From an uncultured Roseibacillus sp. (GTDB lineage Bacteria > Verrucomicrobiota > Verrucomicrobiia > Verrucomicrobiales > Akkermansiaceae), in contig CALFBF010000063.1 in assembly GCA_937949965.1 (NCBI GenBank), positions 1 to 53,070 on the forward strand: DNA of 53,070 nt, written 5' to 3'. The position numbers and the translations under genes were made by a program. The notes beneath the pieces are model-generated. The model was not told where the DNA came from, searched no databases, and saw only the letters and a list, made by a program, of their open reading frames with translations. Below are positions 970 to 4,243 of the stretch, in pieces (the first letter of the stretch is position 1; each line of letters opens with the position of its first letter).

Positions 970-1677
970 GTGACTGTCCAAGCTAATGATGCAGTCCACC
1001 GAGTTGAAGCCAACTTAGGCTATCGGTTCAAGAATCCCTCTCTCATCCGCGAGGCTTTGACTCATCCCAGTATCGTTTGCGAGAAAAACTCGTATTCCAC
1101 TGACAATCAACGTCTTGAGTTCCTTGGCGACGCCGTTTTGCAGCTCGTTTTAACGGAAGCGCTCTACGCTCGCTTTACGGAACAAGACGAAGGAGTCCTC
1201 ACCAAGTGGCGCGCTCGGCTGGTCTCAAAGCCAGCTTTAGCAATCTTCGGGACAGAACTCGAACTCGGTCCCGCCTTTGCGATGAGTAAAGGGGAGGAAG
1301 CCCATGGAGGCCGGGAGCGCGACTCGACCTTAGCCGATGGAGTGGAAGCCGTTCTCGGGGCCGTTTACCTCGATGGTGGCTTTGAAAAAGCCAAGGAAGT
1401 GATCTTACGAATGACAAGCAATGCATTCGAGAGCGTCACCCTCAGCTCAGAAAGCGGAAACCCAAAAGGGGAGTTGCAAGAGAAGCTACAAGCGATTGCG
1501 GCGGAAAGTCCGAAATACGAAATCATCTCCTCTTCCGGTCCCGATCACCAAAAGAACTTCGTAGTCGAAGTGAGCTGGCGCGATCAACTCTTGGGCAGAG
1601 GAGAAGGAGCCAGTAAAAAACTCGCTCAGACAGCGGCAGCCGCTCACGCGCTGACTTCGGAGCGTTGGCTAAAATAA
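970..1677 (+). CDS. rnc: Ribonuclease III
   Basis: This 235-residue protein cleaves double-stranded RNA, mainly rRNA precursors. The RNase III signature RLEFLGDAV lies at residues 48-56. The second acidic pair, D123 and E126, is in the motif DGVEAVLGAVYLDGG. A C-terminal dsRNA-binding domain follows from about residue 158, opening NPKGELQEKLQ and ending in the lysine-rich helix near ASKKLAQTAA. Length and domain order are normal. The start is a GTG at 970, just after the tRNA-His gene. The next gene begins 4 bp after the stop, so the two are probably cotranscribed. Confidence 0.95.
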   Translation: MTVQANDAVHRVEANLGYRFKNPSLIREALTHPSIVCEKNSYSTDNQRLEFLGDAVLQLVLTEALYARFTEQDEGVLTKWRARLVSKPALAIFGTELELGPAFAMSKGEEAHGGRERDSTLADGVEAVLGAVYLDGGFEKAKEVILRMTSNAFESVTLSSESGNPKGELQEKLQAIAAESPKYEIISSSGPDHQKNFVVEVSWRDQLLGRGEGASKKLAQTAAAAHALTSERWLK

Positions 1678-1681
1678 CAAG

Positions 1682-2242
1682 ATGGCTGCCGATCCACAGC
1701 CTTGTCCTTTTCTTCCCAAAGTCGATCGAGTTTGGCGGGCACGCGATATGGCTCCATTCCGCCAACGTCGCGATGCCGAATTCTACTTTTCAGCCCTTTG
1801 CTACGCACAGTCACTGCTATTGGAGGGGAAACCCGCACAGGCACTGCTTCAAATTAATAAATCCTTCCTAGCGGACTTCGAGAACGGAGAATCCACAGCC
1901 ATCCTCGAAGAATGGCCTCCCTCGTATCAAGCAGTGGCTTGGATCATCGAAACCTTCCGCGATGAGGGAGAAACTTTCCTAGGGAATCCGGTCAGACATT
2001 ACCAACACCTCGCCACTCGGATGAGTGGGCCACGACGAGAAGTTCGGATTCTCCGCGCTTGGGCCTGCTTCTACATCGCAGAAGTCTTCGCGCCAGAATA
2101 CCCGCGCGACAGCGAACAAATCGAACGCGAAGAACTCATCATCCCATCCTTCAAGATCATCCAGCAAGCGATCGACCGCTTCGGCTGGGCAGGAGAAGGG
2201 AATGTTCTACGTGGAACGTTCAAACGATTCCAATCAAACTGA
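1682..2242 (+). CDS. Conserved hypothetical protein downstream of rnc
   Basis: A soluble 186-residue protein starting 4 bp after the rnc stop codon, which suggests one transcript. No family or catalytic motif is recognised. The sequence is rich in Trp and aromatic residues. A helical stretch around residues 30-60 (FYFSALCYAQSLLLEGKPAQ) resembles a single tetratricopeptide-like helix pair. There is no signal peptide or membrane segment. The last 40 bases of the gene contain a parS-like sequence (2203-2218). It is convergent with mnmG, 18 bp away. Confidence 0.65.
   Translation: MAADPQPCPFLPKVDRVWRARDMAPFRQRRDAEFYFSALCYAQSLLLEGKPAQALLQINKSFLADFENGESTAILEEWPPSYQAVAWIIETFRDEGETFLGNPVRHYQHLATRMSGPRREVRILRAWACFYIAEVFAPEYPRDSEQIEREELIIPSFKIIQQAIDRFGWAGEGNVLRGTFKRFQSN
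2203..2218. promoter_or_regulatory. parS: parS-like ParB-binding site 1
   Basis: TGTTCTACGTGGAACG differs at two positions (6 and 16) from the perfect palindrome found at 4228. It lies inside the 3' end of the coding region at 1682-2242. It is the outermost member of a four-site cluster around mnmG. Confidence 0.6.
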
Positions 2243-2260
2243 CCCGTCCTCCACGTCGAG

Positions 2261-4138
2261 TTAGCTCACCTTCTTAGCCAGTTCGAGCTTCTTGAGCCAA
2301 ACAGATAAGACTGCTACATCAGCCGGAGTGATGCCCGCAATACGACCCGCTTGACCAAGAGTCTTGGGTCTGATTTCGCCAAAACGCTGGCGAGCCTCAA
2401 TCTTCAGTCCGCTGATGGACTCGTAATCCAGATCATCTGGCAAAGCCGTATTCTCTTGCTTGGAAAGACGCTCAATCTGCTGAGCCTGTCGCTGAATGTG
2501 GCCAATGTATTTGAAGTCACTCTCGAGAATGTCCCAATGTTCCATGTGGAACTTTGCCTGCATCTCAGCAGGGAGGTTTTGCCAGTGACTCTCGTTACGT
2601 CGGAACCAGTTGGCGAGCTTGGTTCCTTCGTAAGCAGTTTCTTTGATGTAAGTCGCTCCCTCGGCAAGACGATCTCGTTTTTCTTGGAAACGACTCCATC
2701 GTTCGTCACTGATGAGTCCCTGCTCACGTGCTTGCGGAGTGAGACGCTGATCGGCGGTGTCCTGACGGAGAAGGAGGCGGTGCTCGGCGCGGCTCGTGAA
2801 GAGGCGATAGGGCTCGGTGCAACCCTTGGTGACCAAATCGTCAATCATGACCCCAATGTAGGCTTGGTCACGCCCGAGAATGAGAGGCTGTTTCCCAAGA
2901 GCTTTTGCACCTGCATTGGTCCCGGCAAGGAGACCCTGCGCGGCCGCCTCTTCGTAACCGGATGTGCCATTGATTTGACCCGCGAAGTAGAGTCCCGAAA
3001 CCAGCTTGGTCTCTAGCGTGGGGTAAAGTTGCGTTGGCGGGCAGTAATCATACTCCACCGCATAACCCGCGCGGATGATCTCAGCATTTTCTAACCCCTC
3101 AATGGAACGGATGAAATCGAGTTGCACCGAATAGGGGAGGGAAGTGGATACCCCGTTGATGTAATACTCACGAGTGTGACGCCCTTCGGGCTCTAGAAAG
3201 ACTTGATGGCGTTCCTTATCCGCGAACTTGACGACCTTGTCCTCGATGGAAGGGCAGTAGCGTGGACCCACACCCTCAATCATACCGCCATACATAGCGG
3301 AGAGATGGAGATTGTCTCTGATGATGTCGTGGGTTCCTGGATTGGTCCACGTGATCCAGCAGGGGAGTTGTTCTACGTGGAACATCCCTTCTTCTGTATA
3401 GTGGTTGAGGCTGAAGAAATCATCTTCATCACGAACCAGTTCCTCAGGATGATAGGAGAACAGTGAGGGCGGTTGGTCCCCGACTTGACGTTCGCATTTG
3501 GAGAAATCAAGGGAACGGCCATTCAGGCGGCAGGGGGTGCCGGTCTTGAAACGATCCACTTCAAAACCCAGTTCCTTGAGCGAATCGCTCACTGTAGAGA
3601 CAGCATCACCGGTGCGTCCTCCTTTTTCCGTTTCTTTCCCCACATGCATGAGCCCACGCATGAAGGTTCCTGCAGAGAGAATAAGAGTCTCGGTATTTAG
3701 TCGCAGACCAAGGTTCGTTTCCAAGCCACGAATCTCATCATTCTCGACAATCAGCCGCGTCACGTTCCCTTGATGCAGATCGAGGTTCGGGGTGGATTCG
3801 ACAATATTCTTAATGCGGAACTGATAAGCCTTCTTATCACACTGAGCGCGGGGAGCGCGCACGCTGGGGCCTTTGCCACCATTTAACATCCGCCACTGAA
3901 TCGCGGTCGCGTCGGTATTCTGCGCCATGATTCCGCCCAGAGCATCAATCTCCCGCACGACATGCCCCTTCGCCAAACCACCGATCGCGGGGTTACAGCT
4001 CATCTGCCCAATAGTATCCAGATTCTGGGTCAGCAAAGCCACCCGACAGCCCATACGGGCAGCGGCCAGCGCGGCTTCTACTCCGGCATGACCAGCGCCG
4101 ACGACCACGACCTGATAAGACTTGGGAAAGGTAAACAT
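2261..4138 (-). CDS. mnmG: tRNA uridine-5-carboxymethylaminomethyl modification enzyme MnmG (GidA)
   Basis: The FAD-dependent subunit of the MnmE-MnmG complex, which installs the cmnm5 group on the wobble uridine of several tRNAs. With the start at ATG 4138 the protein has 625 residues, normal for the family. An in-frame extension to 4228 would add 30 residues before MFTFPKSYQ and is rejected. The dinucleotide-binding motif [13 protein letters not shown] is near residue 11, and the GidA signatures GGIAKG-like ([18 protein letters not shown]) and [12 protein letters not shown] are present. The C-terminal helical domain is complete. Two parS-like sites lie inside the gene and a perfect one lies upstream. 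rsmG, parA and parB, common neighbours in other bacteria, are not next to it here. Confidence 0.96.
2538..2553. promoter_or_regulatory. parS: parS-like ParB-binding site 2
   Basis: TGTTCCATGTGGAACT, inside the 3' third of mnmG, differs from the perfect site at 4228 at positions 8 and 16. The central CG is lost, so binding may be weaker. Confidence 0.5.
3369..3384. promoter_or_regulatory. parS: parS-like ParB-binding site 3
   Basis: TGTTCTACGTGGAACA, inside mnmG, has a single mismatch (position 6) to the perfect 16-bp palindrome at 4228. Confidence 0.7.
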
Positions 4139-4227
4139 AAGCGCGCGGACCCTAGATCGAAATCCCCGTCCCGTCGAGAATGGGCTCCCTCTTTGGAGTA
4201 AAAAGTGAACAGCAAAATGAGCGCCCA

Positions 4228-4243
4228 TGTTCCACGTGGAACA
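4228..4243. promoter_or_regulatory. parS: parS ParB-binding site 4 (perfect palindrome)
   Basis: TGTTCCACGTGGAACA is a perfect 16-bp inverted repeat of the chromosomal parS type (consensus close to TGTTNCACGTGNAACA). It sits in the divergent intergenic region between mnmG (start 4138) and the membrane-protein gene at 4320. Confidence 0.85.

Follow-up and report, generated by a model that had tools for sequence, protein, structure and literature searches.

A predicted parS centromere cluster at mnmG in a Roseibacillus-like bacterium, with in-gene copies that appear to be fixed at codon level in relatives

In many bacteria, mnmG (gidA) is an origin-proximal gene in a gidA-gidB-parAB-dnaA region, with parS sites nearby. 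In Pseudomonas aeruginosa, the sites parS1-4 lie close to oriC and, according to the portion of the report available to us, nine of the ten parS sites are most likely located in coding sequences (PMC4368675). A Hi-C study that included Akkermansia muciniphila YL44 describes, in its accessible part, parS matches that are mostly clustered in 12 of 12 genomes, and it used these matches together with GC skew to place ori, which was not systematically found at dnaA (PMC10197239).

Here, we analyze a stretch of 53,070 nt (the window), which is contig C63 of a draft genome (G000, completeness 90.6%) and in which several copies of the 16-bp palindrome TGTTCCACGTGGAACA, near the parS consensus, are clustered at mnmG. 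The features are as follows, in window coordinates.

970..1677, + strand: rnc (RNase III), a conserved neighbour, with the same surroundings in the same-genus genomes G001 and G002
1682..2242, + strand: ORF of 186 aa without Pfam match, hosting site 1; homologues adjoin mnmG in G001 and G002
2203..2218, + strand: parS-like site 1, TGTTCTACGTGGAACG, two mismatches, in the final codons of the ORF at 1682-2242
2261..4138, - strand: mnmG (gidA), 625 aa, Pfam GIDA E 8.5e-161, matching solved MnmG structures, hosting sites 2 and 3
2538..2553, no strand assigned: parS-like site 2, TGTTCCATGTGGAACT, two mismatches, mnmG codons F-H-M-E-H, MnmG residues 530-534
3369..3384, no strand assigned: parS-like site 3, TGTTCTACGTGGAACA, one mismatch, mnmG codons F-H-V-E-Q, MnmG residues 253-257
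4228..4243, no strand assigned: parS-like site 4, perfect palindrome (0 mismatches), ~90 bp upstream of the chosen mnmG start

The mnmG start codon at 4138 was chosen because homologues align from the first residue of that start; site 4 touches the start of the gene only under the longest ORF, which adds 30 residues. Among named organisms, Roseibacillus persicicus KCTC 12988 has the closest MnmG (88% identity). Two further neighbours resemble E1 subunits of pyruvate-type dehydrogenase and are likewise neighbours in G001 and G002, and in both of these genomes a site is again present in the final codons of the gene homologous to the ORF at 1682-2242. We estimate, with a probability of roughly 0.88, that the four palindromes are the chromosomal parS (centromere) cluster of this Roseibacillus-like species, at which ParB would load and spread and through which ParA would segregate the region.

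A sequence-only reading of the window had already proposed these palindromes as parS sites, and our scan of the window recovered them at the positions and with the mismatch counts that it gave, two of them (2538 and 3369) within mnmG and one (2203) within the neighbouring ORF at 1682-2242; no fifth match at ≤3 mismatches was found within the 53,070 nt. Its statement that four sites are more than chance would produce also held, as none of 100 dinucleotide shuffles of the window reached four matches (mean 0.15, maximum 2). When the scan was extended to the whole draft genome (2,729,062 bases in 166 contigs), the window's four sites were the only matches at ≤2 mismatches, i.e., the cluster at the mnmG locus is the sole one, and a uniform scatter of equally good sites was not seen. 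Four matches with three mismatches are scattered elsewhere in the draft genome. Since the reversed pattern, used as a control on the same genome, yields 0 matches at ≤2 mismatches and 6 at ≤3, we regard the sites with three mismatches as background level.

The proteins that would act on such a cluster are encoded on other contigs. The ParB gene, on C130, is the one TIGR00180 match in the genome (E 1.8e-58), and its product contains the motifs GERRWRA, ENLQRADLNPIEEA and GKSR. When aligned with Caulobacter ParB, it keeps GKSR and a Gly, the equivalents of R173 and G201 by our own count (chain index plus 10), whereas Lys stands where Caulobacter has R204, which contacts parS. Both R173 and G201 are described as absolutely conserved in ParB orthologs in the available portion of the source (PMC7383237). 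By these motifs and this alignment, the genome encodes a ParB that has the residues for CTP binding and for a parS-type HTH. The ParA gene is on C105, identified by its Walker motif KGGVGKTT and a PF13614 match (E 2.3e-57), and the ORF beside it reads like mreB; the DnaA gene is on C81. We did not find rsmG (gidB; PF02527) in the draft genome, which is 90.6% complete. Across 13 genomes, PF02527 gave weak matches in only 6, with a single one above the cut-off, and therefore loss of rsmG may be widespread in the order.

The window's letters alone had suggested that parA, parB, rsmG and dnaA are missing next to mnmG and that the par genes are elsewhere, and both suggestions were borne out: ParA, ParB, DnaA and RsmG are absent from the seven proteins scanned around the cluster, so that mnmG is not adjoined here by the genes of a gidAB-parAB-dnaA neighbourhood, and the par genes are found on the two contigs given above.

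The ParB CTP clamp is a general mechanism. At this locus, ParB, encoded elsewhere, would load at the four sites, would then close as a CTP clamp and would slide or spread into mnmG and its neighbours, after which ParA would move and segregate the mnmG region. The ParB binding and spreading, the role as an origin and, since the genome is fragmented, where the cluster lies in it are all inferred. SMC loading may play no part in the mechanism here, since the accessible part of the Hi-C study reports no homologs of known condensins in A. muciniphila (PMC10197239).

A further expectation of the sequence-only reading, that the cluster should lie near a GC-skew switch, agrees with four of the five relatives for which long stretches were analyzed (G028, G001, G002 and G012), in which the cluster is within ~45 kb of a switch. 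The complete genome G028, sampled in 20-kb pieces, is negative in skew up to 500 kb and positive thence to ~2.24 Mb, and among the ten samples past ~2.24 Mb eight are negative and two slightly positive. In 2-kb bins, the minimum and turn of the G028 skew fall at ~496-498 kb, with sites at 484, 488 and 489 kb, dnaA at position 7 and parB at 1.99 Mb. The switch is ~10-15 kb from the sites in G002 and G012, and ~43 kb from them in G001 if the change at ribD is taken (sign changes occur at ~120 and ~144 kb). The complete genome G021 is ambiguous, as its weak skew goes locally from positive to negative at the sites, the reverse of an origin; in the window's own genome, the switch is on another contig, C159. 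Twelve of the window's 13 4-kb bins have negative skew, and therefore the origin is probably past the window's right end, >49 kb from the sites; most likely, the window lies on one replication arm, and its parS cluster may be >50 kb from oriC. Within the 53 kb, we found one match to the DnaA box TTWTNCACA, with no cluster of boxes, and no match to the origin motif described below.

Ten stretches upstream of ribD align over a block in which TTC triplets recur and a DnaA box comes after them. The layout published as DnaA box-spacer-DnaA-trio requires, in the portion of the paper available, a box, a short spacer and at least three NAN trinucleotides (PMC8287927), and the ribD upstream block fits this layout as far as its sequence goes. 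At C159:9660-9682 (L312), the minus strand reads TTACTCACA (2 mismatches to TTATCCACA), 5 bases and AAG-AAG-AAG-GAT, i.e., the DnaA box and DnaA-trios of a basal-unwinding oriC by the sequence criterion. We place the predicted oriC of this genome on C159 near 9.66 kb, upstream of ribD. Skew at the motif changes from -0.19 to +0.11 (3-kb bins), and the motif has this one match in the whole genome. In G028, which was not a source of the motif, there are two matches genome-wide (C1:497160 and 497668), at the skew switch; in G001, the match is at C8:143806.

Over all 38 genomes, the motif occurs in 12, in one place each in 11 and in two places in G028, and its reversed control gives one match. Eight of these 12 are source genomes, in which a match is expected (the source genomes G002 and G011 fail the final pattern), and the non-source matches are those in G028, G031 (~7 kb from a parS match), G008 and G009. 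Motif and sites share one contig in 8 of the 12 genomes, 2.5 to 43 kb apart, and are on different contigs in G000, G008, G009 and G014; in the window's own genome (G000), the ends of C159 and C63 have no common 19-mer. Since its skew switch and its predicted oriC are both on C159, it is from the relatives that we infer the closeness of its own cluster to the origin.

An origin motif derived from G002 and G012 alone matched just 2 of 38 genomes, which was too narrow, and the one from the ten aligned ribD upstream stretches took its place. The use of ribD itself as a universal origin marker was also rejected, as in G028 ribD is at 880 kb, whereas the switch, the motif and the parS matches are at 484-498 kb. 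We observed in addition that the C159 block upstream of ribD (L196, ~1330-1370) contains, beside DnaA boxes, two copies of a conserved repeat, GTTCCNC, similar to a parS half-site. At another locus (L178, in G032), a perfect parS is found at position 1676 inside a stretch matched as ribD, and sites may therefore move among genes of the origin region.

The four sites could be true parS but peripheral, with the main ParB-loading region elsewhere, in unassembled sequence. The division of the assembly into 166 contigs, its completeness of 90.6 and the window skew, which places the origin outside the window, all leave room for such an arrangement; however, no other site at ≤2 mismatches was found in 2.73 Mb, and in the same-genus genomes G001 and G002 every match at ≤2 mismatches genome-wide falls in one mnmG cluster. 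We therefore regard a peripheral role as improbable and retain the assignment of the four palindromes as the chromosomal parS cluster.

The association of these sites with mnmG recurs in relatives. ParB is present in 37 of 38 genomes (the window's own included), and at least one match with ≤2 mismatches in 36 of 38; at two mismatches, the background is considerable, with 108 true matches vs 52 matches of the reversed pattern summed over the 38 genomes. Two genomes, G007 and G019, have ParB and no parS match at ≤2 mismatches, and in these ParB or the site may have diverged. A pair of sites exactly 831 bp apart, the spacing of the window's two in-gene positions, is found in at least 10 genomes.

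To count by locus, we used the best 80 loci of one MnmG protein search, which comprise 26 Verrucomicrobiota loci and 54 others. A site (≤1 mismatch, C or T consensus form) is present inside mnmG in 21 of the 26 Verrucomicrobiota loci vs 2 of the 54 others. The 200 bp upstream of mnmG contain a site at ≤1 mismatch in 15 of the 26 Verrucomicrobiota loci and in 7 of the 54 others; by the latter count, a parS-like site in this upstream position is no peculiarity of the Verrucomicrobiota. When the two in-gene positions are counted separately (≤2 mismatches), the site-3 codon position is occupied in 21 of 26 Verrucomicrobiota loci and the site-2 codon position in 6 of 26, a count that the search may favour, since one of its six query peptides spans the second in-gene site. 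Both in-gene cases outside the phylum are Desulfuromonadales loci (L228 and L230), in which the site is apparently an independent gain, as judged from sequence. At offset 1583 of mnmG, these two loci have a perfect TGTTTCACGTGAAACA, at nearly the offset of the second Verrucomicrobiota position and in another reading frame.

A phylum-wide search for the FH[VMI]EQ codon pattern matched 43 of 387 genomes, 37 with parS-type codons (TTC CAY RTR GAA CAR) and 6 with other codons; the remaining 344, including all 23 genomes of genus g3, have no exact copy of the in-gene codon pattern. Outside the host's own order, parS-type codon matches, identified by pattern alone, occur in six families of the class and two others of the phylum.

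Since MnmG is a conserved enzyme and each in-gene position keeps its reading frame across Verrucomicrobiota, the in-gene copies could be a by-product of conserved MnmG peptides (FHVEQ and FHMEH) rather than sites at the DNA level. The choice among synonymous codons, which is fixed to that of the palindrome, speaks against this explanation. Over an alignment of 41 MnmG genes, no two of them >95% identical, each FHVEQ codon ranks first in uniformity among the conserved columns of the same residue (14 F, 8 H, 18 V, 22 E and 17 Q columns), and the five-codon stretch ranks first of 120 (uniformity 0.84; next best 0.54). The exact site core is present in 30 of the 34 genes that encode FHVEQ, whereas the codon usage of the individual genes would lead one to expect 2.28. 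Because 14 of these 34 genes are the window or stretches picked for containing a parS match, we counted apart the 20 genes that came from the protein search alone, and 19 of these have the exact core. The mnmG of the window has GTA instead of GTG and hence is among the four inexact FHVEQ genes. At the second in-gene position, FHVE or FHME is encoded as TTC CAC RTG GAA in each of the 11 genes that have it.

Four of the 41 genes (L207, L217, L220 and L260, all from Verrucomicrobiota) have neither the site nor the peptide, and in its place they show FQVKQ, FHARQ, FVARQ and FKLQQ; the remaining 3 of 41 read FHMEQ, among them L212, in which the site is too altered for the two-mismatch count. FHVEQ was found in 0 of 27 genes of other phyla (every second of 54 aligned), of which 22 are gapped at M-F-H, 4 are gapped at M-F and 1 has different residues. 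In addition, two more sites of the window lie outside the mnmG reading frame. As such, a peptide by-product is very unlikely, and the alignments suggest that the copies inside mnmG are held so strictly in many relatives that a short segment of MnmG appears to be fixed. The sequence-only reading had suggested that the sites "remained" with the par genes elsewhere; the sites are indeed at mnmG without par genes beside them, and the wording is too weak for an in-gene site that is conserved codon by codon.

Equally hard to credit is an operator function, with mnmG controlled through the palindromes by some other dimeric regulator, a role that one site ≤200 bp upstream of the gene in 15 of 26 Verrucomicrobiota loci would suit, given that the sequence and palindrome match parS, that the genome has a single ParB with parS-type specificity residues, that sites are also found deep in coding sequence and in the neighbouring gene, and that the clusters lie near the skew switch in 4 of 5 relatives.

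Altogether, these results support the reading of the palindromes as parS. We also find it likely, with somewhat less confidence than for the parS assignment, that the centromere has been kept in the same five mnmG codons across several families of the class of Verrucomicrobiales; that selection for ParB binding, and not enzyme function, fixed FHVEQ; that some members of the group gained the second in-gene site; and that five different contigs carry the centromere, the predicted origin and the DnaA, ParA and ParB genes here, with the centromere in relatives staying with mnmG and the origin region and not with its own protein genes. The locus is a directly testable case of a DNA-segregation site written into a conserved protein. 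In this group, dnaA and the skew switch can be far apart, and having a centromere and a predicted replication origin bears on coverage-based growth-rate estimates and on the choice of start point in these genomes.

In comparison with the gidA-gidB-parAB-dnaA region, the present draft genome has parA, parB and dnaA on other contigs and gave no match for rsmG (gidB); the two Desulfuromonadales loci, which also have parS inside mnmG, are a point of likeness to bacteria with that region. A. muciniphila probably belongs to the same family as the window's host (loci L209 and L210 carry that species name), and an origin away from dnaA is already noted in the study that includes it; the portion of that paper covered here does not mention mnmG, in-gene sites or codon constraint (PMC10197239). 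In the mostly open-access literature searched, by titles and the openings of abstracts, we found no parS in the same codons of one gene across families with a matching peptide. P. aeruginosa resembles the present case in having four parS near oriC and intragenic parS, and differs from it in that the available portion of the report states no conservation of one site, codon by codon, in a given gene of several families (PMC4368675). Intragenic parS is thus itself known from Pseudomonas, and it is the codon-level fixation in mnmG, together with the scattered layout, that appears to be new within the literature searched.
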